A DNA stretch of 21,288 bases from Saccoglossus kowalevskii. Taxonomy: Eukaryota > Hemichordata > Enteropneusta > Harrimaniidae. The stretch spans positions 1-21,288 of the forward strand of contig NW_003112204.1 of the NCBI RefSeq assembly GCF_000003605.2. The letters are read 5' to 3'. Positions 1,278-17,804 of the stretch are shown here, piece by piece. Made by a program: the position numbers and the translations under genes. Within the stretch, counting starts at the first letter, position 1, and each line of letters begins with the position of its first letter. The notes beneath the pieces are model-generated. The model saw nothing but the letters and a program-made list of their open reading frames with translations, did no database searches and was not told the DNA's origin.

Positions 1278-1396
1278 GCCTACTGCCAAACCATTACAGA
1301 ATACACCAGTTCTCGTCCGATCACTGAAGTTAAGCTGCAACCTGCGTTTTTAGTACTTGCCTGGGAGACCGGCTGGGAATAGCACGTGCAGTAGGC
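1278..1396 (+). pseudogene. 5S rRNA: 5S copy 7 with internal T5 terminator
   Basis: Class D spacer. G71T and G72T turn positions 70-74 into TTTTT (1347-1351), a likely Pol III stop inside the gene, and remove two helix V pairs. Other variants are G19A, T63A, G65C, G66T, A84C and C105G. The 63-66 cluster recurs only in copy 25. Followed directly by a truncated copy. Confidence 0.85.
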
Positions 1397-1410
1397 TGAT
1401 GAACATTTTT

Positions 1411-1514
1411 ATTGCAGAATACACCAGTTCTCGTCCGATCACTGAAGTTAAGCTGCATCGGGCGTGGTTAGTACTTGCATGGGAGACCGGCTGGGAATAC
1501 CACGTGCAGTAGGC
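1411..1514 (+). pseudogene. 5S rRNA: 5S copy 8, 5'-truncated (positions 16-119)
   Basis: The spacer of the preceding copy stops after its T5 tract and joins the gene at ATT (position 16). This removes about 98 bp: the rest of the spacer, the TATA-like element, and 5S positions 1-15. The remaining 104 nt match consensus exactly. Helix I cannot form, and the start region is gone although the internal promoter remains. Confidence 0.88.
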
Positions 1515-1608
1515 TCATCAACATTGTTATTCCACATTACATACTATCTTTTTCCCATGATTTTTTGCCTAGACGAGCATAAATGACATACAATTCGGAC
1601 GATGTTCA

Positions 1609-1727
1609 GCCTACTGCCAAACCATTGCAGAATACACCATTTCTTGTCCGATCACTGAAGTTAAGCTGCATCGGGCGTGGTTAGTACTTGCATGGGAGAC
1701 AAGCTGGGAATAACACGTGCATTAGGC
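1609..1727 (+). rRNA. 5S rRNA: 5S rRNA copy 9
   Basis: The class E spacer carries small deletions (GACGAGCATAAATG) and a changed start-proximal palindrome (GATGTTC). Variants G32T, C37T, C93A, G94A, C105A, G114T. C93A and G94A rework helix IV. Confidence 0.86.
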
Positions 1728-1736
1728 TCATCAACA

Positions 1737-1741
1737 TTTTT
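1737..1741 (+). terminator. Representative Pol III terminator (T5), spacer after copy 9
   Basis: A TTTTT tract at 5S position +129 to +133. Nearly every spacer has it, at the same distance from position 119. A few spacers have only T4 (those after copies 36, 41 and 88, and the copy 86/87 junction) and a few have T6. A primary transcript would carry about 10 extra nt to be trimmed. Confidence 0.75.
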
Positions 1742-1791
1742 ATTCCACCGTACATACTAACGTTTTCCCGGGATTTTTTGCCTATCCGAAG

Positions 1792-1801
1792 TATTAAATT
1801 A
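1792..1801 (+). promoter_or_regulatory. Representative TATA-like element near -30
   Basis: TATTAAATTA lies at -33 to -24 of copy 10. A TTAA core or close variant (TTAAACCA, TTAAATGA, TTAATTGA, GTAAACGA) sits here in all spacer classes although flanking bases differ. Upstream TATA-like elements near -30 are known for insect 5S promoters. The regulatory role here is inferred. Confidence 0.6.
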
Positions 1802-1815
1802 CATCCAATTCCGAC

Positions 1816-1823
1816 GAATATTC
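1816..1823 (+). promoter_or_regulatory. Start-proximal palindrome GAATATTC (-9 to -2)
   Basis: A perfect 8-bp palindrome ends one base before the 5S start. It is kept in almost all units, more strictly than the spacer in general. Exceptions include the spacers before copies 9, 22, 36, 51, 76, 80 and 96. It may set the Pol III start. Confidence 0.5.
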
Positions 1824-1824
1824 A

Positions 1825-1943
1825 GCCTACTGCCAAACCATTGCAGAATACGCCAGTTCTCGTCCGATCTCTGAAGTTAAGCTGCATCGGGCGTGGTTAG
1901 TACTTGCATGGGAGACCGGCTGAGAAGAGCACGTGCAGTATGC
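1825..1943 (+). rRNA. 5S rRNA: 5S rRNA copy 10
   Basis: Class F spacer of the full 97 bp. Variants A28G, A46T, G99A, T103G, C105G, G117T. The T103G/C105G pair is found again in copy 70. G117T breaks helix I. Confidence 0.87.
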
Positions 1944-2040
1944 TCATCAACATTTTTATTCCACATTACATACTAACATTTACCCATGATTTTTTGCCTA
2001 GCCGTAGGATTAAATGACATACAATTCCGACGAATATTCA

Positions 2041-2159
2041 GCCTACTGCCAAACCATTGCAGAATACACCAGTTCTCGTCCGATCACTGAAGTTAAGCTG
2101 CATCGGGCGTTTTTAGTACTTGCCTGGGAGACCGGCTGGGAATACCACGTGCAGTAGGC
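2041..2159 (+). pseudogene. 5S rRNA: 5S copy 11 with internal T5 terminator
   Basis: Class D spacer. Consensus except G71T, G72T and A84C. TTTTT lies at 2110-2114 within the internal promoter region. Identical to copy 51. It heads a truncated-copy pair. Confidence 0.87.
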
Positions 2160-2173
2160 TGATGAACATTTTT

Positions 2174-2277
2174 ATTGCAGAATACACCAGTTCTCGTCCG
2201 ATCACTGAAGTTAAGCTGCATCGGGCGTGGTTAGTACTTGCATGGGAGACCGGCTGGGAATACCACGTGCAGTAGGC
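2174..2277 (+). pseudogene. 5S rRNA: 5S copy 12, 5'-truncated
   Basis: Same ATT junction as copy 8; starts at position 16 and matches consensus to position 119. No promoter-proximal spacer is present. Confidence 0.88.
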
Positions 2278-2373
2278 TCATCAACATTTGTATTCCACAT
2301 TACATACTAACTTTTTCCCATCATTTTTTGCCTAGACGAAGCATAAATGACATACAATTCGGACGAATATTCA

Positions 2374-2492
2374 GCCTACTGCCAAACCATTGCAGAATAC
2401 GCCAGTTCTCGTCCGATCTCTGAAGTTAAGCTGCATCGGGCGTGGTTAGTACTTGCATGGGAGACAAGCTGGGAATAACACGTGCATTAGGC
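2374..2492 (+). rRNA. 5S rRNA: 5S rRNA copy 13
   Basis: Class E spacer with CATAAATG (one T lost) at the TATA-like site. Variants A28G, A46T, C93A, G94A, C105A, G114T. Confidence 0.88.
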
Positions 2493-2589
2493 TCATCAGC
2501 ATTTTTATTCCACCGTACATACTAACGTTTTCCCGGGATTTTTTGCCTATCCGAAGTATTAAATTACATCCAATTCCGACGAATATTCA

Positions 2590-2708
2590 GCCTACTGCCA
2601 AACCATTGCAGAATACGCCAGTTCTCGTCCGATCTCTGAAGTTAAGCTGCATCGGGCGTGGTTAGTACTTGCATGGGAGACCGGCTGAGAAGACCACGTG
2701 CAGTATGC
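2590..2708 (+). rRNA. 5S rRNA: 5S rRNA copy 14
   Basis: Class F spacer. Variants A28G, A46T, G99A, T103G, G117T. Identical to copy 74 (14980), part of a duplicated block 12,390 bp apart. Confidence 0.88.
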
Positions 2709-2805
2709 TCATCAACATTTTTATTCCACATTACATACTAACATTTACCCATGATTTTTTGCCTAGCCGTAGCAGTAAACGACATCCAATTCCGACGAAT
2801 ATTCA

Positions 2806-2924
2806 GCCTACAGCCAAACCATTGCAGAATACACCAGTTCTCGTCCGATCACTGAAGTTAAGCTGCATCGGGCGTGGTTAGTACTTGCATGGGAGACAAG
2901 CTGGGAATAACACGTGCATTAGGC
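2806..2924 (+). rRNA. 5S rRNA: 5S rRNA copy 15
   Basis: Class G spacer. Variants T7A, C93A, G94A, C105A, G114T. The 5' part matches copy 75, but the 3' part matches copies 13 and 27, so it looks recombinant. Confidence 0.88.
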
Positions 2925-3021
2925 TCATCAACATTTTTATTCCACCGTACATACTAACGTTTTCCCGGGATTTTTTGCCTATCCGAAGTATTAAATTACA
3001 TCCAATTACGACGAATATTCA

Positions 3022-3139
3022 GCCTACTGCTAAACCATTGCAGAATACGCCAGTTCTCGTCCGATCACTGAAGTTAAGCTGCATCGGGCATGGTTAGTAC
3101 TTGCACGGGAGACCGGCTGGGAATACACGTGCAGTAAGC
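3022..3139 (+). rRNA. 5S rRNA: 5S rRNA copy 16 (118 nt)
   Basis: Class F spacer. Variants C10T, A28G, G69A, T85C, G117A; one C is missing at 105/106 in helix V. G69A is not compensated. Confidence 0.85.
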
Positions 3140-3234
3140 CCATCAACATTTTTATTCCACGTACATACTATCTTTTTCCCTTGATTTTTGCCCAGACGAA
3201 GAATTAAATGACATACAATTCGGAGGAATATTCA

Positions 3235-3353
3235 GCCTACTGCCAAACCATTGCAGAATACACCAGTTCTCGTCCGACCACTGAAGTTAAGCTGCATTGG
3301 GCGTGTTTAGTACTTGCATGGGAGACCTGCTGGGAATACCACATGCAGTAGGC
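3235..3353 (+). rRNA. 5S rRNA: 5S rRNA copy 17
   Basis: The spacer is a hybrid: class C at its start (CTTGATTT), class E near the gene. Variants T44C, C64T, G72T, G94T, G109A. G72T gives T3 only, so no internal terminator. Confidence 0.87.
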
Positions 3354-3454
3354 TTATCAACATTTTTATTCCACCGTACATACTATCTTTTTTCCCCCCG
3401 TGATTTTTTTCCTAGCCGAAGCATTAATTGAAATCCAATTCCAACAAATATTCA

Positions 3455-3573
3455 GCCTACTGCCAAACCATTGCAGAATAAACCAGTTCTCGTCCGATCA
3501 CTGAAGTTAAGGCGCATCGCGCGTGATTAGTTCTTGCACGGGAGACCGTCTTGGAATACCACGTTCAGTCGGC
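3455..3573 (+). rRNA. 5S rRNA: 5S rRNA copy 18, diverged
   Basis: Class C' spacer with a C6 run. Variants C27A, C58G, T59C, G66C, G72A, A78T, T85C, G95T, G98T, G111T, A116C. Helices I, II, IV and V are all hit. Related to copies 59 and 97 by G111T/A116C. Confidence 0.82.
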
Positions 3574-3670
3574 TCATCAACATTTTTATTCCACATTACA
3601 TACTAACTTTTTCACATGATTTTTTGCCTAGACGAAGCATTAAATGACATACAATTCGGACGAATATTCA

Positions 3671-3789
3671 GCCTACTGCCAAACCATTGCAGAACACACC
3701 AGTTCTCGTCCGACCACTGAAGTTAAGCTGCATCGGGCGTGTTTAGTACTTGCATGGGAGACCGGCTGGGAATACCATGTGCAGTAGGC
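3671..3789 (+). rRNA. 5S rRNA: 5S rRNA copy 19
   Basis: Class E spacer with TTCACATG. Variants T25C, T44C, G72T, C108T. C108T leaves a G-U wobble with G69. First unit of a block repeated at 6433. Confidence 0.88.
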
Positions 3790-3886
3790 TTATCAACATT
3801 TTTATTCCACCGTACATACCAACATTTTCCCGGGATTTTTTGCCTTGCCGAAGCGTTAAACGACATGCAATTCTGACGAATATTCA

Positions 3887-4004
3887 GCCTCCTGTCAAAC
3901 CATTGCAGAACACACCAGTTCTTGTCCGATCACTGAAGTTAAGCTGCATCTGGTGTAGTTAGTGTTGCATGGGAGACTGGCTGGGAATACCACGTGCAGT
4001 CGAC
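3887..4004 (+). rRNA. 5S rRNA: 5S rRNA copy 20 (118 nt)
   Basis: Class I spacer. Variants A5C, C9T, T25C, C37T, G65T, C68T, G71A, C93T, A116C, G118A. TTAGTACTTG is altered to TTAGTGTTG, which damages the intermediate promoter element. Confidence 0.82.
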
Positions 4005-4101
4005 TCATCAACATTTTTATTCCACATTACATACTAATTTTTTCCTAAGATTTTTTGCCTAACCGTAGCATTAAATGGCATCCTATTGCGACGAATATTC
4101 A

Positions 4102-4220
4102 GCATACTGCCAAACCAATGCAGAATACACCAGTTCTCGTCCGATCACTGAAGTTAATCTGCATCGGGCATGGTTAGTACTTGCATGGGAGACAGGCTGG
4201 GAATACCACCTGTAGTAGGC
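4102..4220 (+). rRNA. 5S rRNA: 5S rRNA copy 21
   Basis: Class J spacer. Variants C3A, T17A, G57T, G69A, C93A, G109C, C112T. The start GCATACTG and CCAATGC are shared with copies 35 and 79. Confidence 0.85.
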
Positions 4221-4317
4221 TTATCAACATTTTTATTCCACCGTACATACTAACTTTTACCCGGGATTTGTTGCCTAGCCGAAGTATTTAATTACATCCA
4301 ACTCCGACGATTATTCA

Positions 4318-4339
4318 GCCTACTGCCAAACCAATGCAG
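4318..4339 (+). pseudogene. 5S copy 22, 22-nt 5' fragment at a rearrangement joint
   Basis: Positions 1-22 (with T17A) are followed directly by class B spacer from AGTATTAAA, so the rest of the gene and the start of the next spacer are missing. The joint has a 2-3 base AG(T) overlap. The left side matches the block at 6433-7101; the right side leads into a block that matches 846-1943. Confidence 0.85.
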
Positions 4340-4372
4340 TATTAAATTACATCCAATTCCGAGGAATATTCA

Positions 4373-4490
4373 GCCTACTGCCAAACCATTGCAGAATACA
4401 CCAGTTCTCGTCCGATCTCTGAAGTTAATCTGCATCGGGCGTTGTAATACTGCATGGGAGACCGGGCTGGGAATACCACTTGTAGTAGGC
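4373..4490 (+). rRNA. 5S rRNA: 5S rRNA copy 23 (118 nt)
   Basis: Matches copy 5 except for three single-base length changes: TGTAATAC, ACTGCATG and ACCGGGCTGG. All are in short homopolymers, so base-calling error is possible. Upstream lies only the tail of a class B spacer. Confidence 0.82.
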
Positions 4491-4588
4491 TTATCAACAT
4501 TTTTATTCCACCGTACATGCCAAATTATTCCCGGGATTGTTTGCCTAGCCGAAGCGTTAAACGACATGCAATTTCTGACGAATATTCA

Positions 4589-4707
4589 GCCTACTGTCAA
4601 ACCATTGCAGAACACACCAGTTCTCGTTCGATCACTGAATTTAAGCTGCATCTGGCGTGGTTAGTACTTGCATAGAAGACCGGCTGAGAATACCACGTGC
4701 AGTAAGC
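4589..4707 (+). rRNA. 5S rRNA: 5S rRNA copy 24
   Basis: Class H spacer with one extra T (ATTTCTGACG). The gene is identical to copy 6, exactly 3,527 bp away. Confidence 0.87.
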
Positions 4708-4804
4708 TCATCAACATTTTTATTTCACATTACATACTAACTTTTACTCATGATTTTTTGCCTAGCCGTAGGATTAAATGACATACAATTCCGACGAATA
4801 TTCA

Positions 4805-4923
4805 GCCTACTGCCAAACCATTGCAGAATACACCAGTTCTCGTCCGATCACTGAAGTTAAGCTGCAACCTGCGTTTTTAGTACTTGCCTGGGAGACCAGC
4901 TGGGAATACCACGTGCAGTAGGC
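4805..4923 (+). pseudogene. 5S rRNA: 5S copy 25 with internal T5 terminator
   Basis: Class D spacer. G71T/G72T create TTTTT at 4874-4878. It shares T63A, G65C and G66T with copy 7 and also has A84C and G94A. Confidence 0.86.
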
Positions 4924-4937
4924 TGATGAACATTTTT

Positions 4938-5041
4938 ATTGCAGAATACACCAGTTCTCGTCCGATCACTGAAGTTAAGCTGCATCGGGCGTGGTTAGTA
5001 CTTGCATGGGAGACCGGCTGGGAATACCACGTGCAGTAGGC
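4938..5041 (+). pseudogene. 5S rRNA: 5S copy 26, 5'-truncated
   Basis: Same junction as copy 8; positions 16-119 match consensus. Confidence 0.88.
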
Positions 5042-5137
5042 TCATCAACATTTTTATTCCACATTACATACTATCTTTTTCCCATGATTTTTTGCCTAGA
5101 CGAAGCATAAATGACATACAATTCGGACGAATATTCA

Positions 5138-5256
5138 GCCTACTGCCAAACCATTGCAGAATACACCAGTTCTTGTCCGATCACTGAAGTTAAGCTGCAT
5201 CGGGCGTGGTTAGTACTTGCATGGGAGACAAGCTGGGAATAACACGTGCATTAGGC
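5138..5256 (+). rRNA. 5S rRNA: 5S rRNA copy 27
   Basis: Class E spacer with CATAAATG. Variants C37T, C93A, G94A, C105A, G114T. Identical to copy 73 (14764). Confidence 0.88.
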
Positions 5257-5353
5257 TCATCAACATTTTTATTCCACCGTACATACTAACGTTTTCCCGG
5301 GATTTTTTGCCTATCCTTAGTATTAAATTACATCCAATTCCGACGAATATTCA

Positions 5354-5472
5354 GCCTATTGCCAAACCATTGCAGAATACGCCAGTTCTCGTCCGATCTC
5401 TGAAGTTAAGCTGCATCGGGAGTGGTTAGTACTTGCATGGGAGACCGGCTGAGAAGACCACGTGCAGTATGC
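5354..5472 (+). rRNA. 5S rRNA: 5S rRNA copy 28
   Basis: Class F spacer (CCTTAGTATT). Variants C6T, A28G, A46T, C68A, G99A, T103G, G117T. C68A loses a helix V closing pair. Confidence 0.87.
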
Positions 5473-5569
5473 TCATCAACATTTTTATTCCACATTACAT
5501 ACTAACATTTACCCATGATTTTTTGCCTAGCCGTAGCAGTAGACGACATCCAATTCCGACGAATATTCA

Positions 5570-5688
5570 GCCTACGGCCAAACCATTGCAGAATACACCA
5601 GTTCTCGTCTGATCACTGAAGTTAAGCTGAATCGGGCGTGGTTAGTACTTGCATGGGAGACCGGCCGGGAATACCACGTGCAGTAGGC
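5570..5688 (+). rRNA. 5S rRNA: 5S rRNA copy 29
   Basis: Class G spacer with AGTAGACGAC. Variants T7G, C41T, C61A, T97C. Opens the ordered run G-A-B-C. Confidence 0.89.
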
Positions 5689-5784
5689 TTATCAACATTT
5701 TTATTCCACCGTACATACCAAATTTTTCCCGGATTTTTTGCCTAGCCAAAGCGTTAAACCACAGGCAATTCTGACGAATATTCA

Positions 5785-5903
5785 GCCTACTGTCAAACCA
5801 TTGCAGAACACACCAGTTCTCGTCCAATCACTGAATTTAAGCTGCATCGTGCGTGGTTAGTACTTGCATGGGAGACCGGCTGGGAATAGCACATGCAGTA
5901 GGT
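5785..5903 (+). rRNA. 5S rRNA: 5S rRNA copy 30
   Basis: Class A spacer, one G short in CCCGGATT. Variants C9T, T25C, G42A, G52T, G66T, C105G, G109A, C119T. C119T replaces the terminal G-C pair with G-U. Confidence 0.87.
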
Positions 5904-6000
5904 TCATCAACATTTTTATTCCACCGTACATACTAAGTTTGTCCCGGGATTTTTTGCCTAGCCGAAGTATTAAATTACATCCAATTCCGAGGAATATTCA

Positions 6001-6119
6001 GCCTACTGCCAAACCATTGCAGAGTACACCAGTTCGCGTCCGATCACTGAAGTTAAGCTACATCGGGCGTGGTTAGTACTTGCATGGGAGACCTGCTGGG
6101 AATGCCACATGCAATAGGC
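6001..6119 (+). rRNA. 5S rRNA: 5S rRNA copy 31
   Basis: Class B spacer. Variants A24G, T36G, G60A, G94T, A104G, G109A, G114A. G60A breaks helix II opposite C20. Confidence 0.88.
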
Positions 6120-6216
6120 TTATCAACATTTTTATTCCACCGTACATACAATCTTTTTCCCTTGATTATTTGCCTAGCCGAAACATTAATTGAAATCCAA
6201 TTCTGACGAATATTCA

Positions 6217-6335
6217 GCCTACTGCCAAACCATTGCCGAATACACCAGTTCTTGTCCGATCACTGAAGTTAAGCAGCATCGGGCATGGTTAGGACTTGCA
6301 CGGGAGACCGGCTGGCAATACCACGTGCATTAGGC
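6217..6335 (+). rRNA. 5S rRNA: 5S rRNA copy 32
   Basis: Class C spacer. Variants A21C, C37T, T59A, G69A, T77G, T85C, G100C, G114T. A21C and T59A hit the same helix II pair without restoring it. Confidence 0.86.
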
Positions 6336-6432
6336 CCATCAACATTTTTATTCCACATTACATTCTAATTTTTTCCCATGATTTTTTGCCCAGACGAAGC
6401 ATTAAATGGCATACAATTCGGACGAATATTCA

Positions 6433-6551
6433 GCCTACTGCCAAACTATTGCAGAATACACCAGTTCTCATCCGACCACTGAAGTTAAGCTGCATCGGGC
6501 GTGTTTAGTACTTGCATGGGAGACCGGCTGGGAATACCATGTGCAGTAGAC
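6433..6551 (+). rRNA. 5S rRNA: 5S rRNA copy 33
   Basis: Class E spacer. Variants C15T, G38A, T44C, G72T, C108T, G118A. C15T leaves a wobble with G65. Confidence 0.87.
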
Positions 6552-6648
6552 TTATCAACATTTTTATTCCACCGTACATACCAACATTTTCCCGGGATTT
6601 TTTGCCTTGCCGAAGCGTTAAACGACAAGCAATTCTGACGAATATTCA

Positions 6649-6767
6649 GCCTCCTGTCAAACCATTGCAAAACACATCAGTTCTTGTCCGATCACTGAAG
6701 TTAAGCTGCATCTGGTGTGGTTAGTACTTGCATGGGAGACTGGCTGGGAATACCACGTGCAGTAGAC
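6649..6767 (+). rRNA. 5S rRNA: 5S rRNA copy 34
   Basis: Class I spacer. Variants A5C, C9T, G22A, T25C, C29T, C37T, G65T, C68T, C93T, G118A. Counterpart of copy 20 but without its deletion. Confidence 0.86.
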
Positions 6768-6864
6768 TCATCAACATTTTTATTCCACATTACATACTAA
6801 CTTTTTCCTATGATTTTTTGCCTAACCGTAGCATTAAATGGCATCCAATTGCGACGAATATTCA

Positions 6865-6982
6865 GCATACTGCCAAACCAATGCAGAATACACCAGTTCT
6901 CGTCCGATCACTGAAGTTAATCTGCATCGGGCATGGTTAGTACTTGCATGGGAGACAGGCTGGGAATACCACCTGTAGCAGC
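6865..6982 (+). rRNA. 5S rRNA: 5S rRNA copy 35 (118 nt)
   Basis: Class J spacer. Variants C3A, T17A, G57T, G69A, C93A, G109C, C112T, and a shortened 3' end TAGCAGC. Helix I is weakened on both strands. Confidence 0.84.
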
Positions 6983-7079
6983 TTATCAACATTTTTATTC
7001 CACCGTACATACTAACTTTTTCCCGGGATTTGTTGCCTAGCCGAAGTATTAAATTACATCCAACTCCGACGTTTATTCA

Positions 7080-7198
7080 GCCTACTGCCAAACCAATGCA
7101 GAATACACCAGTTCTCGTCCGATCACTGAAGTTAAGCTGCATCGGGCGTGGTTAGTAGTTGCATGGGAGACAGGCTGGGAATAACACGTGCATTAGGC
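7080..7198 (+). rRNA. 5S rRNA: 5S rRNA copy 36
   Basis: Class F spacer with a changed start region (GTTTATTC). Variants T17A, C79G, C93A, C105A, G114T. From about 7101 onward the sequence repeats 980 bp downstream. Confidence 0.87.
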
Positions 7199-7514
7199 TC
7201 ATCAACATTTTATTCCACCGGACATACTAACGTTTTCCCGGGATTTTTTGCCAATCCGAAGTATTAAATTACGTCCAATTCCAACGAATATTCAGCCTAC
7301 TGCCAAACCATTGCAGAATACGCCAGTTCTCGTCCGATCTCCGAAGTTAAGCTGCATCGGGCGTGGTTAGTACTTACATGGGAGACCGGCTGAGAAGACC
7401 ACGTGCAGTATGCACATCAACATTTTTATTCCACATTACATACTAACTTTTACCCATGATTTTTTGCCTAGCCGTAGCAGTAAACGACATCCAATTCCGA
7501 CGAATATTCAGCCT
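7101..7514 (+). repeat. Duplicated block (partner about 8081-8494)
   Basis: Near-identical over about 400 bp at a shift of 980 bp, sharing the rare CCACCGGAC, CCAATCCGAA, CCAACGAA and TTACATGGGAG. Looks recent. Confidence 0.85.
7295..7413 (+). rRNA. 5S rRNA: 5S rRNA copy 37
   Basis: Class F spacer with CCACCGGAC and CCAACGAA. Variants A28G, A46T, T48C, G82A, G99A, T103G, G117T. Identical to copy 42. Confidence 0.87.
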
Positions 7515-7629
7515 ACTGTCAAACCATTGCAGAATACACCAGTTCTCGTCCGATCTCTGAAGTTAATCTGCATCGGGCGTGGTTAATACTTGCATGGGAG
7601 ACTGGCTGAGAATACCACTTGTAGTAGGC
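7511..7629 (+). rRNA. 5S rRNA: 5S rRNA copy 38
   Basis: Class G spacer. Variants C9T, A46T, G57T, G76A, C93T, G99A, G109T, C112T. Belongs with copies 5, 23 and 65. Confidence 0.86.
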
Positions 7630-7726
7630 TTATCAACATTTTTATTCCACCGTAAATGCCAAATTATTCCCGGGATTGTTTGCCAAGCCGAAGCGTTAAA
7701 CGACATGCAATTCTGACGAATATTCA

Positions 7727-7845
7727 GCCCACTGTCAAACCATTGCAGAACACACCAGTTCTCGTTCGATAACTGAATTTAAGCTGCATCTGGCGTGGTT
7801 AGTACTTGCATAGAAGACCGGCTGAGAATACCACGTGCAGTAAGC
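7727..7845 (+). rRNA. 5S rRNA: 5S rRNA copy 39
   Basis: Class H spacer. Variants T4C, C9T, T25C, C40T, C45A, G52T, G65T, G86A, G88A, G99A, G117A. T4C and C45A are shared with copy 66. Confidence 0.86.
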
Positions 7846-7942
7846 TCATCAACATTTTTATTCCACATTACATACTAACTTTTACCCATGATTTTTTGCC
7901 TAGCCGTAGGATTAAATGACATCCAATTCCGACGAATATTCA

Positions 7943-8060
7943 GCCTACTGCAAAACCATTGCAGAATACACCAGTTCTCGTCCGATCACTGAAGTTAAGC
8001 TGCATCGGGCGTTTTTAGTACTTGCCTGGGAGACCGGCTGGGAATACCACGTGCAGTAGC
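7943..8060 (+). pseudogene. 5S rRNA: 5S copy 40 with internal T5 terminator (118 nt)
   Basis: Class D spacer. G71T/G72T give TTTTT at 8012-8016. Also C10A, A84C and one G lost near 117/118, which shifts helix I pairing. Confidence 0.86.
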
Positions 8061-8075
8061 TGATGAACATTTTTT

Positions 8076-8178
8076 ATTGCAGATACACCAGTTCTCGTCC
8101 GATCACTGAAGTTAAGCTGCATCGGGCGTGGTTAGTACTTGCATGGGAGACAGGCTGGGAATAACACGTGCATTAGGC
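8076..8178 (+). pseudogene. 5S rRNA: 5S copy 41, 5'-truncated
   Basis: ATT junction as in copy 8 but after T6, and one A is lost in AGATACACC. C93A, C105A and G114T differ from the other truncated copies and match copy 36, so the 3' part came with the 980-bp duplication. Confidence 0.86.
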
Positions 8179-8274
8179 TCATCAACATTTTATTCCACCG
8201 GACATACTAACGTTTTCCCGGGATTTTTTGCCAATCCGAAGTATTAAATTACGTCCAATTCCAACGAATATTCA

Positions 8275-10671: not shown

Positions 10672-10767
10672 TCATCAACATTTTTATTCCACATTACATA
10701 CTAACGTTTTCCTATGATTTTTGCCTAGCCGTTGCAGTAAACGACATCCACTTCCGACGAATATTCA

Positions 10768-10886: not shown

Positions 10887-10983
10887 TTATCAACATTTTT
10901 ATTCCACCGTACATACCAAATTTTTCCCGGGATATTTTGCCTAGCCAAAGCGTTAAACCACAGGCAATTCTGACGAATATTCA

Positions 10984-11102
10984 GCCTATAGTCAAACCAT
11001 TGCAGAACGCACCAGTTCTCGTCCAATCACTGAATTTAAGCTGCATCGTGCGTGGTTAGTACATGCATGGGAGACCGGCTGGGAATACCACGAGCAGTAG
11101 GT
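10984..11102 (+). rRNA. 5S rRNA: 5S rRNA copy 55
   Basis: Class A spacer (GGGATATTTTG). Variants C6T, T7A, C9T, T25C, A26G, G42A, G52T, G66T, T80A, T110A, C119T. The most diverged class A copy. Confidence 0.85.
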
Positions 11103-11199
11103 TCATCAACATTTTTATTCCACCGTACATACTAAGTTTATCCTGGGATTTTGTGCCTAGCCGAAGTATTAAATTTCATCCAATTCCGAGGAATATTCA

Positions 11200-11318
11200 G
11201 CCTACTGCCAAACCATTGCAGAGTACACCAGTTCGCGTCCGATCACTGAAGTTAAGCTGCATCGGGCGTGGTTAGTACTTGCATGGGAGACCTGCTGGGA
11301 ATGCCACGTGCAATAGGC
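11200..11318 (+). rRNA. 5S rRNA: 5S rRNA copy 56
   Basis: Class B spacer (TTATCCTGGG, ATTTTGTGCC). Variants A24G, T36G, G94T, A104G, G114A. Keeps G109, unlike copies 3 and 31. Confidence 0.88.
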
Positions 11319-11415
11319 TTATCAACATTTTTATTCCACCGTACATACTATCTTTTTCCCTTGATTATTTGCCTAGCCGAAACATTAATTGAAATCCAAT
11401 TTCGACGAATATTCA

Positions 11416-11534
11416 GCCTACTGCCAAACCATTGCAGAATACACCAGTTCTCGTCCGATCACTGAAGTTAAGACGCATCGGGCATGGTTAGGACTTGCAC
11501 GGGAGACCGTCTGGGAATACCACGTGCAGTAGGC
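11416..11534 (+). rRNA. 5S rRNA: 5S rRNA copy 57
   Basis: Class C spacer. Variants C58A, T59C, G69A, T77G, T85C, G95T. Two helix II and two helix IV pairs are lost. Confidence 0.86.
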
Positions 11535-11631
11535 CCATCAACATTTTTATTCCACATTACATTCTAACTTTTTCCCATGATTTTTTGCCCAGACGAAGCA
11601 TTAAATGACATACAATTCGGACGAATATTCA

Positions 11632-11742
11632 GCTACTGCCAAACCATTGCAGAATACACCAGTTCTCGTCCGATCAATGAAGTTAAGCTGCATCGGTCGT
11701 GGTTGCATGGGAGACCGGCCTGGAATACCATGTGCATTAGGC
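11632..11742 (+). pseudogene. 5S rRNA: 5S copy 58 with 7-nt internal deletion (111 nt)
   Basis: Class E spacer. GGTTAGTACTTGCATGG is reduced to GGTTGCATGG, a deletion between the two TT pairs that removes AGTACTT of the intermediate promoter element and loop E. One C is also lost at 2/3, with C47A, G67T, T97C, G98T, C108T and G114T. Very likely non-functional. Confidence 0.86.
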
Positions 11743-11839
11743 TCATCAACATTTTTATTCCACCATACATACTAACTTTTTTCCGGGATTTTTTGCCTAG
11801 CCGAAGTATTAAATTACATCCAATTCCGACGAATATTTA

Positions 11840-11958
11840 GCCTACTGCCAAACCATTGCAGAATACAGCAGTTCTTGTCAGATCACTGAAGTTAAGCTGC
11901 ATCGGGCGTGTTTAGTACTTGCATGGGAGACCTGCTGGGAATACCACGTTCAGTCGGC
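11840..11958 (+). rRNA. 5S rRNA: 5S rRNA copy 59
   Basis: Class F spacer. Variants C29G, C37T, C41A, G72T, G94T, G111T, A116C. The 3' end TCAGTCGGC is that of copies 18 and 97. Confidence 0.86.
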
Positions 11959-12055
11959 TCATCAACATTTGTATTCCACATTACATACTAACTTTTTCAC
12001 ATGATTTTTTGCCTAGACGAAGCATTAAATGACATACAATTCGGACGAATATTCA

Positions 12056-12174
12056 GCCTACAGCCAAACCATTGCAGAATACACCAGTTCTCATCCGATC
12101 ACTGAAGTTAAGCTGCATTGGGTGTGGTTAGTACTTGCATGGGAGACCGGCTGGGAATACCACGTGCATTAGGC
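12056..12174 (+). rRNA. 5S rRNA: 5S rRNA copy 60
   Basis: Class E spacer with TTCACATG. Variants T7A, G38A, C64T, C68T, G114T. Confidence 0.88.
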
Positions 12175-12271
12175 TCATCAACATTTTTATTCCACCGTAC
12201 ATACTAACGTTTTCCCGGAATTTTTTGCCTAGCCGAAGTATTAAATTACATTCAATTCCGACGAATATTCA

Positions 12272-12390
12272 GCCTACTGCCAAACCATTGCAGAATACAC
12301 CAGTTCTCGTCCAATCACTGAAGTTAAGCTGTATCGGGCGTGGTTAGTACTTACATGGGAGACCGGCTGGGAATACCACGAGCAGTAGGC
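12272..12390 (+). rRNA. 5S rRNA: 5S rRNA copy 61
   Basis: Class F spacer (CCCGGAATTTT). Variants G42A, C61T, G82A, T110A. Counterpart of copy 48, 2,703 bp upstream. Confidence 0.88.
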
Positions 12391-12487
12391 TTATCAACAT
12401 TTTTATTCCACCGTACATACAAACTTTTTCCCGGGATTTGTTGCTTAGCCGAAGTATTAAATTACATCCAATTCCGACGAATATTCA

Positions 12488-12606
12488 TCCTACTGCCAAA
12501 CCATTGTAGAATACACCAGTTCTCGTCCGATCACAGAAGTTAAGCTGCATCGTGCGTGGTTAGTACTTGCATGGGAGACCGGCTGGGAATACCACGTGCA
12601 AAAGGC
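12488..12606 (+). rRNA. 5S rRNA: 5S rRNA copy 62, altered first base
   Basis: Class F spacer ending TTCAT. Variants G1T, C20T, T48A, G66T, G114A, T115A. Helix I loses three pairs. Confidence 0.84.
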
Positions 12607-12706
12607 TTATCAACATTTTTATTCCACCGTACATACTATCTTTTTCCCCCCGTGATTTTTTGCCTAGCCGAAACATTAATTGAAATCCAATTCCGACGAA
12701 TATTCA

Positions 12707-12825
12707 GCCTACTGCCAAACCATTGCAGAATACACCAGTTCTCGTCCGATCACTGAAGTTAAGGCGCATCGGGCGTGCTTAGTTCTTGCACGGGAGACCG
12801 GCTGGGAAAACCAAGTTCAATCGGC
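12707..12825 (+). rRNA. 5S rRNA: 5S rRNA copy 63, diverged
   Basis: The spacer has a C' front (CCCCCCGTGATT) and a class C back. Variants C58G, T59C, G72C, A78T, T85C, T103A, C108A, G111T, G114A, A116C. Closely related to copy 84. Confidence 0.83.
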
Positions 12826-12921
12826 TCATCAACATTTTTATTCACATTACATACTAACTTTTTCCCATGATTTTTTGCCTAGACGAAGCATTAAATGACA
12901 TACAATTCGGACGAATATTCA

Positions 12922-13040
12922 GCCTACTGCCAAACCATTGCAGAATACACCAGTTCTCGTCTGATCACTGAAGTTAAGCTGCATCGGGCGTGGTTAGTAC
13001 TTGCATGGGAGACCGGCTGGGAATACCACGTGCATTAGGC
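12922..13040 (+). rRNA. 5S rRNA: 5S rRNA copy 64, near consensus
   Basis: Class E spacer, 96 bp. Variants C41T and G114T only. Internal promoter intact, TTAAAT at 12891-12896 and GAATATTC at 12913-12920. One of the best candidates for a working copy. Confidence 0.9.
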
Positions 13041-13137
13041 TGATCAACATTTTTATTCCACCTAACATACTAACGTTTTCCCGGGATTTTTTGCCTAGCC
13101 GAAGTATTAAATTACATCCAATTCCGACGAATATTCA

Positions 13138-13256
13138 GCCTACTGCCAAACCATTGCAGAATACACCAGTTCTCATCCGATCTCTGAAGTTAATCTCCAT
13201 CGGGCGTGGTTAATACTTGCATGGGAGACCGGCTGAGAATACCACTTGTAGTAGGC
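13138..13256 (+). rRNA. 5S rRNA: 5S rRNA copy 65
   Basis: Class F spacer. Variants G38A, A46T, G57T, G60C, G76A, G99A, G109T, C112T. Confidence 0.86.
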
Positions 13257-13353
13257 TTATCAACATTTTTATTCCACCGTAAATGCCAAATTATTCCCGG
13301 GATTGTTTGCCTAGCCGAAGCGTTAAACGACATGCAATTCTGACGAATATTCA

Positions 13354-13472
13354 GCCCACTGTCAAACCATTGCAGAACACACCAGTTCTCGTTCGATAAC
13401 TGAATTTAAGCTGCATCTGGCGTGGTTAGTACTTGCATAGCAGACCGGCTGAGAATACCACGTGCAGTAAGC
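13354..13472 (+). rRNA. 5S rRNA: 5S rRNA copy 66
   Basis: Class H spacer. Variants T4C, C9T, T25C, C40T, C45A, G52T, G65T, G86A, G88C, G99A, G117A. Differs from copy 39 only at position 88. Confidence 0.86.
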
Positions 13473-13568
13473 TCATCAACATTTTTATTCCACATTACAT
13501 ACTAACTTTTACCCATGATTTTTTGCCTATAGTAGGATTAAATGACATCCAATTCCGACGAATATTCA

Positions 13569-13687
13569 GCCTACTGCCAAACCATTGCAGAATACACCAG
13601 TTCTCGTCCGATCACTGAAGTTAAGCTGCATCGGGCGTGGTTAGTACTTGCATGGGAGACTGGCTGGGAATAACACGTGCATTAGGC
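13569..13687 (+). rRNA. 5S rRNA: 5S rRNA copy 67, near consensus
   Basis: Class D spacer with an altered GCCTATAGTAGG. Variants C93T, C105A, G114T. C93T leaves a G-U wobble in helix IV. Confidence 0.89.
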
Positions 13688-13784
13688 TCATCAACATTTT
13701 TATTCCACCGTACATACTAACGTTTTCCCGGGATTTTTTGCCTATCCGAAGTATAAAATTACATCCAATTCCGAAGAATATTCA

Positions 13785-13903
13785 GCCTACTGTCAAACCA
13801 TTGCAGAACACACCTGTTCTCGTCCGATCTCTGAAGTTAAGCTGCATCGGGCGTGGTTAGTACTTGCATGGGAGACCGGCTGAGAAGACCACGTGCAGTA
13901 GGC
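13785..13903 (+). rRNA. 5S rRNA: 5S rRNA copy 68
   Basis: Class F spacer whose upstream element reads GTATAAAATT, the closest to a canonical TATA box in the window. Variants C9T, T25C, A31T, A46T, G99A, T103G. Confidence 0.88.
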
Positions 13904-14000
13904 TCATCAACATTTTTATTCCACTGTACATACTAAGTTTGTCCCGGGATTTTTTGCCTTGCCAAAGTATTACATTACATCCAATTCCGAAGAATATTCA

Positions 14001-14119
14001 GCCTACTGCCAAACCATTGCAGAGTACACCAGTTCGCGTCCGATCACTGAAGTTAAGCTGCATCGGGCGTGGTTAGTACTTGCATGGGACACCTGCTGGG
14101 AATGCCACGTGCAATAGGC
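14001..14119 (+). rRNA. 5S rRNA: 5S rRNA copy 69
   Basis: Class B spacer with CCGAAGAATATT and GCCTTGCC. Variants A24G, T36G, G90C, G94T, A104G, G114A. Confidence 0.87.
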
Positions 14120-14216
14120 TTATCAACATTTTTATTCCACCGAACATACTATCTTTTTCCCTTGATTATTTGCCTAGCCGAAACATTAATTGAAATCCAA
14201 TTCGGACGAATATTCA

Positions 14217-14335
14217 GCCTACTGCCAAACCATTGCAGAATACACCAGTTCTCGTCCGATCTCTGAAGTTAAGCTGCATCGGGCGTGGTTAGTACTTGCA
14301 TGGGAGACTGGCTGAGAAGAGCACGTGCAGTATGC
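14217..14335 (+). rRNA. 5S rRNA: 5S rRNA copy 70
   Basis: Class C spacer. Variants A46T, C93T, G99A, T103G, C105G, G117T. Counterpart of copy 10. Confidence 0.87.
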
Positions 14336-14431
14336 TCATCAACATTTTTATTCACATTACATACTAACATTTACCCATGATTTTTTGCCTAGCCGTAGGA
14401 TTAAATGACATACAATTCCGACGAATATTCA

Positions 14432-14549
14432 GCTACTGCCAAACCATTGCAGAATACACCAGTTCTCGTCCGATCACTGAAGTTAAGCTGCATCGGGCGT
14501 TTTTAGTACTTGCCTGGGAGACCGGCTGGGAATACCACGTGCAGTAGGC
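14432..14549 (+). pseudogene. 5S rRNA: 5S copy 71 with internal T5 terminator (118 nt)
   Basis: Class D spacer. One C is lost at 2/3 (AGCTACTG), and G71T, G72T, A84C. TTTTT at 14500-14504. Same gene sequence as copy 86. Confidence 0.86.
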
Positions 14550-14563
14550 TGATGAACATTTTT

Positions 14564-14667
14564 ATTGCAGAATACACCAGTTCTCGTCCGATCACTGAAG
14601 TTAAGCTGCATCGGGCGTGGTTAGTACTTGCATGGGAGACCGGCTGGGAATACCACGTGCAGTAGGC
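14564..14667 (+). pseudogene. 5S rRNA: 5S copy 72, 5'-truncated
   Basis: Same junction as copy 8; consensus over positions 16-119. Confidence 0.88.
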
Positions 14668-14763
14668 TCATCAACATTTTTATTCCACATTACATACTAA
14701 CTTTTTCCCATCATTTTTTGCCTAGACGAAGCATAAATGACATACAATTCGGACGAATATTCA

Positions 14764-14882
14764 GCCTACTGCCAAACCATTGCAGAATACACCAGTTCTT
14801 GTCCGATCACTGAAGTTAAGCTGCATCGGGCGTGGTTAGTACTTGCATGGGAGACAAGCTGGGAATAACACGTGCATTAGGC
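14764..14882 (+). rRNA. 5S rRNA: 5S rRNA copy 73
   Basis: Class E spacer. Identical to copy 27: C37T, C93A, G94A, C105A, G114T. Confidence 0.88.
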
Positions 14883-14979
14883 TCATCAACATTTTTATTC
14901 CACCGTACATATTTACGTTTTCCCGGGATTTTTTGCCTATCCGAAGTATTAAATTACATCCAATTCCGACGAATATTCA

Positions 14980-15098
14980 GCCTACTGCCAAACCATTGCA
15001 GAATACGCCAGTTCTCGTCCGATCTCTGAAGTTAAGCTGCATCGGGCGTGGTTAGTACTTGCATGGGAGACCGGCTGAGAAGACCACGTGCAGTATGC
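14980..15098 (+). rRNA. 5S rRNA: 5S rRNA copy 74
   Basis: Class F spacer (CATATTTACG). Identical to copy 14. Confidence 0.88.
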
Positions 15099-15195
15099 TC
15101 ATCAACATTTTTATTCCACATTACATACTAACATTTACCCATGATTTTTTGCCTAGCCGTAGCAGTAAACGACATCCAATTCCGACGAATATTCA

Positions 15196-15314
15196 GCCTA
15201 CAGCCAAACCATTGCAGAATACACCAGTTCTCGTCCGATCACTGAAGTTAAGCTGAATCGGGCGTGGTTAGTACTTGCATGGGAGACCGGCCGGGAATAC
15301 CACGTGCAGTAGGC
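15196..15314 (+). rRNA. 5S rRNA: 5S rRNA copy 75, near consensus
   Basis: Class G spacer. Variants T7A, C61A, T97C. Starts another G-A-B run. Confidence 0.89.
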
Positions 15315-15412
15315 TTATCAACATTTTTATTCCACCGTACATACCAAATTTTTCCCGGGGATTTTTTGCCTAGCCAAAGCGTTAAACCACAGGCAATTCT
15401 GACGTCTATTCA

Positions 15413-15531
15413 GCCTACTGTCAAACCATTGCAGAACACACCAGTTCTCGTCCAATCACTGAATTTAAGCTGCATCGTGCGTGGTTAGTACTTGCATGGG
15501 AGACCGGCTGGGAATACCACGTGCAGTAGGT
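15413..15531 (+). rRNA. 5S rRNA: 5S rRNA copy 76
   Basis: Class A spacer with one extra G (CCCGGGGATT) and a broken palindrome (GACGTCTATTC). Variants C9T, T25C, G42A, G52T, G66T, C119T. Confidence 0.88.
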
Positions 15532-15628
15532 TCATCAACATTTTTATTCCACCGTACATACTAAGTTTGTCCCGGGATTTTTTGCCTAGCCGAAGTATTA
15601 AATTACATCCAATTCCGAGGAATATTCA

Positions 15629-15747
15629 GCCTACTGCCAAACCATTGCAGAGTACACCAGTTCTCGTCCGATCACTGAAGTTAAGCTACATCGGGCATGT
15701 TTAGTACTTGCATGGGAGACCGGCTGGGAATACCATGTGCAGTAGGC
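15629..15747 (+). rRNA. 5S rRNA: 5S rRNA copy 77, with a compensatory helix V change
   Basis: Class B spacer. Variants A24G, G60A, G69A, G72T, C108T. G69A and C108T together turn a G-C pair into A-U. G60A and G72T still break pairs. Confidence 0.87.
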
Positions 15748-15843
15748 TTATCAACATTTTTATTCCACCGTACATACCAACATTTTCCCGGGATTTTTTG
15801 CCTTGCCGAAGCGTTAAACGACATGCAATTCCGACGAATATTC

Positions 15844-15962
15844 GCCTCCTATCAAACCATTGCAAAACACACCAGTTCTTGTCCGATCACTGAAGTTAAG
15901 CTGTATCTGGTGTGGTTAGTACTTGCATGGGAGACTGGCTGGGAATACCACGTGCAGTAGAC
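15844..15962 (+). rRNA. 5S rRNA: 5S rRNA copy 78
   Basis: Class I spacer ending ATTC without the usual A. Variants A5C, G8A, C9T, G22A, T25C, C37T, C61T, G65T, C68T, C93T, G118A. Confidence 0.85.
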
Positions 15963-16059
15963 TCATCAACATTTTTATTCCACATTACATACTAACTTTT
16001 TCCTATGATTTTTTGCGTAACCGTAGCATTAAATGGCATCCAATTGCGACGAATATTCA

Positions 16060-16177
16060 GCATACTGCCAAACCAATGCAGAATAAACCAGTTCTCGTCC
16101 GATCACTGAAGTTGATCTGCATCGGCCATGGTTAGTACTTACATGGGAGACCGGGTTGGGATACTACGAGCAGTAGC
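16060..16177 (+). rRNA. 5S rRNA: 5S rRNA copy 79, diverged (118 nt)
   Basis: Class J spacer (TTGCGTAACC). Variants C3A, T17A, C27A, A55G, G57T, G67C, G69A and G82A, with a disrupted 3' quarter (ACCGGGTTGGGATACTACG) and end CAGTAGC. Probably a pseudogene. Confidence 0.8.
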
Positions 16178-16274
16178 TTATCAACATTTTTATTCCACCG
16201 TACATACTATCTTTTTCCCTTGATTATTTGCCTAGCCGAAACATTAATTGAAATCCAATTCCGACGAATATTTT

Positions 16275-16393
16275 GCCTACAGCCAAACCATTGCAGAATA
16301 CACCAGTTCTCGTCCGATCAATGAAGTTAAGCTGCATCGGGCGTGGTTAGTACTTGCATGGGAGACCGGCTGAGAAGACCACGTGCAGTAGGC
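16275..16393 (+). rRNA. 5S rRNA: 5S rRNA copy 80
   Basis: Class C spacer ending TATTTT instead of TATTCA. Variants T7A, C47A, G99A, T103G. Confidence 0.87.
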
Positions 16394-16490
16394 TCATCAA
16401 CATTTTTATTCCACATTACATACTAACTTTTACCCATGATTTTTTGCCTAGCCGTAGCGTTAAACCACAGACATTTCTGACGAATATTCA

Positions 16491-16609
16491 GCCTACTTTC
16501 AAACCATTGCAGAACACACCAGTTCTCGTCCAATCACTGAATTTAAGCTGCATCATGCGTGGTTAGTACTTGCATGGGAGACCGGCTGGGAATACCACGT
16601 GCAGTAGGC
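16491..16609 (+). rRNA. 5S rRNA: 5S rRNA copy 81
   Basis: The spacer is a hybrid: D/G front (ACTTTTACCCATG) and class A back (GCGTTAAACCAC). Variants G8T, C9T, T25C, G42A, G52T, G65A, G66T. Partner of copy 2. Confidence 0.87.
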
Positions 16610-16706
16610 TCATCAACATTTTTATTCCACCGTACATACTAAGTTTGTCCCGGGATTTTTTGCCTAGCCGAAGTATTAAATTACATCCAATTCCGAGGAA
16701 TATTCA

Positions 16707-16825
16707 GCCTACTGCCTAACCATTGCAGAGTACACCTGTTCGCGTCCGATCACTGAAGTTAAGCTGCATCGGGCGTGGTTAGTACTTGCATGGGAGACCT
16801 GCTGGGAATGCCACATGCAATAGGC
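16707..16825 (+). rRNA. 5S rRNA: 5S rRNA copy 82
   Basis: Class B spacer. Variants A11T, A24G, A31T, T36G, G94T, A104G, G109A, G114A. Partner of copy 3. Confidence 0.87.
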
Positions 16826-16922
16826 TTATCAACATTTTTATTCCACCGTACATACTATCTTTTTCCCTTGATTATTTGCCTAGCCGAAACATTAATTGAA
16901 ATCCAATTCCGACGAATATTTA

Positions 16923-17041
16923 GCCTACAGCCAAACCATTGCAGAATACACCAGTTCTCGTCCGATCACTGAAGTTAAGCTGCATTGGGCGTGGTTAGTA
17001 CTTGCATGGGAGACCGGCTGGGAATACCACGTGCAGTAAGC
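16923..17041 (+). rRNA. 5S rRNA: 5S rRNA copy 83, near consensus
   Basis: Class C spacer. Variants T7A, C64T, G117A. Partner of copy 4, though the 3' ends differ. Confidence 0.89.
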
Positions 17042-17138
17042 TCATCAACATTTTTATTCCACATTACATACTAACTTTTACCCATGATTTTTTGCCTAGC
17101 CGTGGGATTAAATGACATACAATTCCGACGAATATTCA

Positions 17139-17257
17139 GCCTACTGCCAAACCATTGCAGAATACACCAGTTCTCGTCCGATCACTGAAGTTAAGGCGCA
17201 TCGGGCGTGGTTAGTTCTTGCACGGGAGACCGGCTGGGAAAACCAAGTTCAGTCGGC
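17139..17257 (+). rRNA. 5S rRNA: 5S rRNA copy 84, diverged
   Basis: Class D spacer (CCGTGGGATT). Variants C58G, T59C, A78T, T85C, T103A, C108A, G111T, A116C. C58G and T59C break two helix II pairs. Confidence 0.84.
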
Positions 17258-17354
17258 TCATCAACATTTTTATTCCACATTACATACTAACTTTTTCCCA
17301 TGAATTTTTGCCTAGACGATGCATTAAATGACATACAATTCGGACGAATATTCA

Positions 17355-17473
17355 GCCTACATTCAAACCATTGCAGAATACACCAGTTCTCGTCTGATCA
17401 CTGAAGTTAAGCTGCATCGGGCGTGGTTAGTACTTTCATGGGAGACCGGCTGGGAATACCACGTGCATTAGGC
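17355..17473 (+). rRNA. 5S rRNA: 5S rRNA copy 85
   Basis: Class E spacer (ATGAATTTTTGCC, GACGATGC). Variants T7A, G8T, C9T, C41T, G82T, G114T. Four helix I pairs are disturbed. Confidence 0.85.
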
Positions 17474-17569
17474 TGATCAACATTTTTATTCCACCTTTAC
17501 ATACTAACGTTTTCCCATGATTTTTTGCCTATAGTAGGATAAATGACATCCAATTCCGACGAATATTCA

Positions 17570-17687
17570 GCTACTGCCAAACCATTGCAGAATACACCAG
17601 TTCTCGTCCGATCACTGAAGTTAAGCTGCATCGGGCGTTTTTAGTACTTGCCTGGGAGACCGGCTGGGAATACCACGTGCAGTAGGC
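17570..17687 (+). pseudogene. 5S rRNA: 5S copy 86 with internal T5 terminator (118 nt)
   Basis: The spacer is an F/D hybrid with GCCTATAGTAGG, as before copy 67. One C is lost at 2/3; G71T, G72T, A84C. TTTTT at 17638-17642. Confidence 0.86.
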
Positions 17688-17700
17688 TAATGAACATTTT

Positions 17701-17804
17701 ATTGCAGAATACACCAGTTCTCGTACGATCACTGAAGTTAAGCTGCATCGGGCGTGGTTAGTACTTGCATGGGAGACCGGCTGGGAATACCACGTGCAGT
17801 AGGC
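17701..17804 (+). pseudogene. 5S rRNA: 5S copy 87, 5'-truncated
   Basis: Same junction but with T4 before ATT, and AATGAAC for GATGAAC in the upstream leader. C40A is the only change within positions 16-119. Confidence 0.87.

Follow-up and report, generated by a model that had tools for sequence, protein, structure and literature searches.

A 5S-derived satellite array in Saccoglossus kowalevskii with seven linked pairs of damaged copies and probably separate origins of their two kinds of damage

Introduction

How does one pair of damaged gene copies come to stand at seven places in a single tandem array? The question is raised by contig NW_003112204.1 of the hemichordate Saccoglossus kowalevskii, the whole of which (C629, 21,288 base pairs, bp) is the window analysed here and is occupied by one array of 5S-derived repeats. 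At each of the seven places a first 5S-like copy, with a run of five T (T5) inside the gene and an A-to-C change at gene position 84 (A84C), is followed by a second copy whose 5' part has been lost at a short joint. A sequence-only reading made earlier had taken the pair for something that arose once and spread as part of larger segments. We propose instead, with a probability of roughly 0.86, that the array belongs to a diverged 5S-derived satellite in which the joint, formed at an ATT repeat, spread first, a sublineage with T5 and A84C followed later, and the cassette that carries them was copied in pieces and is now drifting.

Results

The repeat unit of 216 bp consists of a 120-bp gene-like part and a 96-bp spacer. 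Units were located by an anchor scan, which found 101 full anchors and one cut copy at a spacing of mostly 216 bp. The count of 102 is made up of 95 Rfam 5S matches at the gathering score, all on the plus strand, and seven truncated second copies, none of which is among the matches at that score. Head-to-tail repetition of a 5S-like unit, 102 times with a 216-bp period, is the organisation of a satellite.

What exactly is shared by the seven pairs? Every first copy contains GCGTTTTTAGTACTTGCC, that is, T5 at gene positions 70-74 together with A84C, and the string TTTTTAGT occurs seven times on the plus strand of the window, in exactly these seven copies. Behind the first copy there follows in 7/7 pairs the same joint, at which ATT runs into GCAGA. 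Across the joint, five pairs show a step of 118 bp and the other two a step of 117 bp, against the usual 216 bp, so that 98 bp have been lost (216-118 = 98), of which 80 are spacer and 18 gene when the shared ATT is counted once. The ATT at the breakpoint is common to the spacer (CATTTTTATT, continued by CCAC) and to the gene (AAACCATT, continued by GCAG), and insertions or deletions (indels) of one base lie at or near the joint in pairs 4 and 7. Directly 3' of the gene, GATGAA replaces CATCAA or TATCAA in six of the seven first copies, and pair 7 has AATGAA. A four-base micro-inversion was considered as the source of GATGAA in place of CATCAA, and was dropped because partial forms exist, namely GATC in two normal-spacer window units and AATGAA in pair 7.

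The sequence-only reading was correct as to the seven pairs, with the same two lesions in the same order, and as to a second copy shortened by about 98 bp at a 3-bp ATT repeat. Its distances between the starts of first copies agree with ours at 763, 2,764, 3,138, 2,274 and 3,138 bp, and the one given as 4,215 bp is actually 4,214 bp. Its copy numbers run one higher than the present count from copy 25 on, which fits its having counted the 5' gene fragment of a 55-bp duplication at about 4,310.

Do the two kinds of damage travel together in the rest of the genome? The 572-Mb assembly (4,830 contigs) was searched for the joint with a 30-base pattern at up to three mismatches and for T5 with A84C with a 25-base pattern at up to two mismatches; copies with indels are missed by either search. 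The joint was found at 174 places, 81 of them exact, against none for a reversed-pattern control, and it is present on 22 contigs among the 100 of the 174 places listed. Of 71 matches to the second pattern, 22 combine T5 with C84 (18 exact, four with one mismatch). The joint stands behind 21 of these 22, the exception being on C3259; one of the 21, on C3156, is followed by a form of the joint that differs by one base. The pair is therefore not confined to the window array, as 14 more pairs with T5, A84C and joint lie on other contigs.

The converse does not hold. We read 49 distinct joints, seven in the window and 42 elsewhere (29 merged stretches on 16 other contigs, three double counts having been removed); further joints were read in four of 11 short stretches. 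T5 and A84C are found on the first copy at 7/7 joints in the window and at 2/42 outside it. Among the remaining 40 outside joints, 36 carry neither change, three have first copies that lack the stretch in question, and one runs off the end of its contig, so that of the 38 outside joints at which the first copy shows the T5/A84 stretch, 36 are without both changes. The view of the two lesions as one inseparable unit finds no support in this count. The two changes of the first copy are also separable from each other. Three stretches have A84C with neither T5 nor joint, one has A84C together with GTGTTT and the joint, and three copies on C2220 have T5 but neither A84C nor joint. T5 and A84C, on the simplest reading, each also arose or moved separately. 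Because the joint is commoner (174 places versus 22), and because 21 of the 22 copies with T5 and A84C sit on a joint, the joint is probably the older change. Likely, if not proved, is an order in which the joint came first and T5 with A84C followed in a single lineage that already had the joint; a common origin of the two kinds of damage is then improbable.

By what route did the pairs come to occupy seven places in the window? When the 102 units are clustered into types, the T5 first copies form type F, and type G comprises six truncated copies together with the full-length unit 82, which is 4.5-5.6% different from them. The order D-E-F-G-H-I-O-A-B is complete at units 22-30, and pieces of this cassette lie at units 5-10, 11-14, 37-43 (without G), 50-51, 70-75, 85-89 and 99-102 (IOAB); units 64-66 read D-E-H. 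Unit types thus recur in the same order, as in a higher-order repeat, with 21 repeated unit trigrams where 5,000 shuffles gave 0.4 on average and never more than 4. Locally, therefore, the earlier proposal of a single origin and spread in larger segments holds up, as the window pairs look descended from one pair that moved with its flanks. The shared segments are not blocks of one kind, and their left and right limits vary from pair to pair: a crude extension in 60-bp blocks, asymmetric between partners, gives shared flanks of 0-600 bp to the left of the joints and 60-1,140 bp to the right. At units 39-40 (pair 4) the truncated copy clusters with H rather than G after a G-like start, and one unit is missing; this second copy looks like a G/H recombinant, with one unit lost by exchange within the gene.

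Is the pair an unusually successful element? Seven units belong to the first-copy lineage and eight or nine to each of four other types, and the other types overall have six to nine. Since other types are as numerous or more so, the pair is not special in this respect, and the idea of an unusually successful element was rejected. The pair is a good marker, usable as had been suggested for following the growth of the array, and not a favoured element.

On other contigs the joint keeps varied company. It recurs in 334-bp steps (118+216) on C4492, C576, C981, C2147 and C3712, in steps of about 766 bp on C3149, and on C588 in 118-bp steps one after another. Which spacer type lies behind the joint differs between contigs, so that exchanges inside the gene have probably moved the joint onto many partners. 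We note two further structures in these stretches. At positions 1842 and 2922 of C576_1826_10304 and 1841 of C981_3842_6871 the joint is followed by GCAGAA(T/A)ACATAGTAA, which leads into spacer-like sequence, a second rearrangement common to these two contigs. At 958 of C1891_10025_13240 and at 1508 of both C576_1826_10304 and C981_3842_6871 the spacer runs directly into the gene at GGGAGACC, and in first copies with this breakpoint most of the gene is missing ahead of the joint.

How large is the family, and where are the working 5S genes? Searched with up to two mismatches, a 21-base pattern from the spacer of the window family gives 4,151 matches in the genome against 39 for the reversed control, which puts the family at about 4,100 units in the assembly, with about 2.5% of them in the window. 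Better 5S genes lie elsewhere, in units of about 1.14 kb on C3485 and mostly about 1.58 kb on C2212 and C3801, with a best score of 112.9 bits in these arrays versus 97.7 bits for the top window unit. By score and uniformity these three arrays would be the working genes, so that the family combines high copy number with separation from functional 5S arrays. C3485 and C2212 share nearly the same 5S gene, with spacers of about 1.0 and 1.46 kb that differ when compared by eye, unaligned.

Was the family itself ever a working 5S gene type? Its consensus differs from proper 5S at 11 of 120 columns, and within the promoter stretch, 49-97, at the single column 62. Three helix pairs have changed on both sides relative to proper 5S and still pair (7-113, GC to TA; 17-62, CG to TA; 31-48, GC to AT), another is AT where proper 5S has GT, and two that adjoin an insertion of one base are unmatched in the model register, with 32 of 34 pairs kept. 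The compensated changes point to a past period as a working 5S gene, and they suggest that an ancestor of the family once made 5S RNA.

Present constraint on the gene-like part is, by contrast with this past, not detectable. The selection tests used 471 of 517 unit rows, after 46 that fit badly in the first 16 columns (mainly rows starting at the joint) were dropped; figures for the middle spacer, the 3' flank and the T run use all 517 rows, misaligned ones included. Counts of T runs inside the gene-like part, most of which pick up the joint, were set aside. Private variants number 43 in 119 gene sites versus 39 in 97 spacer sites (p 0.66). Variation at paired columns, 5.1%, is slightly above the 4.2% at unpaired gene columns; single-sided changes retain pairing in 437 of 1,491 cases versus 460 expected from the spectrum of unpaired columns; and 26 double changes (seven paired) are seen versus 40 expected under independence of columns. 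The array behaves as a neutral satellite, since new mutations hit gene and spacer equally and ignore base pairing. Nor are the copies intact and homogenised in the manner of functional 5S genes. Genome-wide, 595 copies lie within three mismatches of the consensus gene, 14 of them exact among the matches listed; the 92 window unit rows, in which truncated copies are included and the seven T5 copies are not, have at least two gene differences from the consensus and a median of seven; and units differ from one another by 11% on average.

Behind the gene-like part a run of four or more T follows in 490 of 517 rows. In the unit consensus it is held by ATCAACATTTTTATTCCAC at 122-140, where minor variants amount to 0-8% per column; few stretches of the unit vary as little, although private variants are no rarer in this flank.

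The coordinates are collected in Table 1, which includes the site of the only 271-bp step in the window. Tandem Repeats Finder reports an additional period of 432 bp at 8076-14566 and 10350-17700, which would fit two alternating spacer types. A unit step of 209 bp was seen 19 times, once in the window (at 11646) and otherwise on C1444, C3145, C3892, C4165 and other stretches, and is possibly another marker. A search of a phage collection with one of the pairs gave no match. The mitochondrial COX1 of the assembly contains seven in-frame TGA codons by the standard code and is an uninterrupted frame with TGA as Trp, in keeping with an animal genome.

Table 1. Positions of the array, the seven pairs and the internal duplication in the window
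Feature	Positions	Strand	Remarks
216-bp 5S-derived repeat array, 102 units	1..21288	+	95 Rfam 5S matches; 101 full anchors and 1 cut copy
Pair 1, first copy	1278..1397	+	T5 at 1347-1351, A84C
Pair 1, second copy	1411..1515	+	lacks gene positions 1-15 and most of the preceding spacer; joint ATT at 1411-1413
Pair 2, first copy	2041..2160	+	T5 at 2110-2114, A84C
Pair 2, truncated second copy	2174..2278	+	
Pair 3, first copy	4805..4924	+	T5 at 4874-4878, A84C
Pair 3, truncated second copy	4938..5042	+	
Pair 4, first copy	7943..8062	+	T5 at 8012-8016, A84C
Pair 4, truncated second copy	8076..8179	+	3' part and spacer of unit type H
Pair 5, first copy	10217..10336	+	T5 at 10286-10290, A84C; neighbouring units on both sides differ from those at most other pairs
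Pair 5, truncated second copy	10350..10454	+	
Pair 6, first copy	14431..14550	+	T5 at 14500-14504, A84C
Pair 6, truncated second copy	14564..14668	+	
Pair 7, first copy	17569..17688	+	T5 at 17638-17642, A84C
Pair 7, truncated second copy	17701..17805	+	joint one T shorter
55-bp tandem duplication with extra 5' gene fragment	4283..4394	+	sole 271-bp step in the window

Discussion

What steps might account for the seven pairs? A scenario for the window is that the 216-bp family derives from a 5S gene type that was once functional and has diverged. The 118-bp unit would have come from a deletion at the 3-base ATT repeat, by slippage or microhomology repair, which fused the T run of one unit to the ATT at bases 16-18 in the gene that follows. 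Unequal exchange, conversion or both would then have carried the joint to 174 places or more. In one of the lineages with the joint, the upstream copy would later have gained A84C and T5 at 70-74, in either order. This lineage, lying inside the nine-unit cassette D-E-F-G-H-I-O-A-B, would have been copied with it in overlapping pieces to yield the seven pairs, and the mosaic flanks are of the kind that such copying may leave.

The internal promoter of 5S genes spans about 50-97, and transcription by RNA polymerase III (Pol III) ends at runs of at least four T. By these rules the first copy is predicted to be dead twice over, with an altered intermediate element and box C and an internal Pol III stop. 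The second copy is predicted to keep the internal promoter stretch and to lack the 5' strand of helix I, so that helix I could not form. Neither lesion appears to matter, because the whole family now seems to drift.

Several points weigh against our reading. Frequency is only an indirect guide to age, and T5 could be both old and rare. Nor were the 42 outside joints sampled at random: they consist of the first exact matches in contig order and of joints in loci retrieved for another purpose. The two patterns searched genome-wide also differ, both in their length and in the mismatches allowed. GATGAA precedes 37 of the 42 outside joints, but of the 380 outside units whose spacer is normal 31 have it too, and it is for that reason no private mark of the joint; TATCAA, found at 2/42, could stem from recombinants or from a second deletion at the same ATT. 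As to drift, variants that are commoner and presumably older have a lower mean minor frequency in the gene (about 5%) than in the middle spacer (about 11%). This may be a remnant of past constraint, and constraint that is weak or past is possible.

Could both lesions have arisen together as one pair that spread by duplication of larger segments? The seven window pairs, all with both lesions, and the 21 of 22 genomic copies with T5 and A84C that have the joint behind them are what such an origin would give. Most joints are without T5 or A84C, however, both among those readable outside the window (36/38) and in the overall tally of 174 joints versus 22, and T5 and A84C are also found apart and without the joint. 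Taken genome-wide this account is already unlikely, holding mainly as a local description of this contig, and we consider it very improbable overall. Still less probable, and in our judgement highly so, is that the pairs are artefacts of assembly, in which a collapsed or duplicated read segment was repeated by the assembler. An all-repeat contig is just where assemblers fail, and the 22 family contigs sampled measure 10-31 kb; the argument from small contigs is qualified by C1639, a family contig also with matches, which exceeds 51 kb. Against an artefact, private bases and flanks set the seven pairs apart from one another, and the same joint recurs across the 22 contigs counted above.

A different kind of alternative grants the family a function. 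Might it be a working second 5S type, for example a germline-specific one, in which truncated and T5 copies are tolerated or used? The three compensated helix pairs, a promoter stretch that departs from proper 5S only at column 62, and the T run behind nearly all units would favour this. Against it stand the scarcity of near-consensus genes (595 among about 4,100 units), the even fall of new mutations on gene and spacer with no preference for pairing, and the absence from the window rows of any copy with fewer than two gene differences; we regard it as unlikely. One may also imagine a fossil second 5S type that became a satellite in which the joint was favoured or kept by recruiting the Pol III machinery without making 5S RNA, as a decoy or through short hybrid RNAs. 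This idea is prompted by the joint's retention of the internal promoter stretch, with the T run of the previous unit just before the promoter, and we consider it very unlikely. We thus retain the diverged satellite with two successive markers as the preferred reading.

How does this satellite compare with known systems? A 5S gene-pseudogene repeat was reportedly described in Xenopus laevis by Jacq et al. in 1977; as in that repeat, one 5S-like copy lies beside another and the two have multiplied together in tandem. In Xenopus one member is said to be a gene, whereas both copies here are damaged and stand within an array of other changed copies. The nearest kind, set alongside by description, is the frog satellite PcP190, which selected passages of a report describe as a repeat of about 190 bp with a 120-bp 5S-like region and a variable rest, apart from true 5S arrays, thought to be derived from 5S ribosomal DNA, with an average similarity of about 70%, and reported to be transcribed (PMC11675491). 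The present family is likewise a short satellite with a 120-bp 5S-like part separate from the true 5S arrays, but its gene-like part is closer to proper 5S, from which it differs at the 11 columns noted above. In Tribolium castaneum and T. freemani, according to passages of another report, truncated 5S pseudogenes share one fixed deletion in many array copies; in T. freemani 30 bp at the gene start are missing in 32 of 113 copies, the short copies are confined to an arrangement with Jockey-like elements, and the full-length Tribolium 5S genes are highly similar to each other (PMC11202950). One fixed deletion repeated over many array copies is common to both cases; here, in contrast, the deletion also takes spacer, and the whole family is diverged. 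Long higher-order 5S arrays of mixed variants are described from long reads of Esox pikes, in the parts of that report considered, with spacer diversity above that of the gene; the genes are termed potentially functional and gene diversity is low, at Pi 0.0145 (PMC5437419). Mixed variants in a higher-order arrangement are seen in both, whereas here the mean distance between units is 11% and the cassettes carry marked lesions. In the literature, of which only selected passages were covered, no title on such a joint was found, a weak negative.

What does the array tell us? The joint and the T5 and A84C lineage nested within it form an ordered marker pair inside one repeat family, and such ordered markers let array growth, unit loss and transfer between contigs be read from single sequences. 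The compensated changes of the past followed by drift in the present point to a 5S gene type turned satellite DNA. The biology is otherwise that of ordinary array turnover, in which the pairs are passengers of a large, decaying and reshuffled repeat family.

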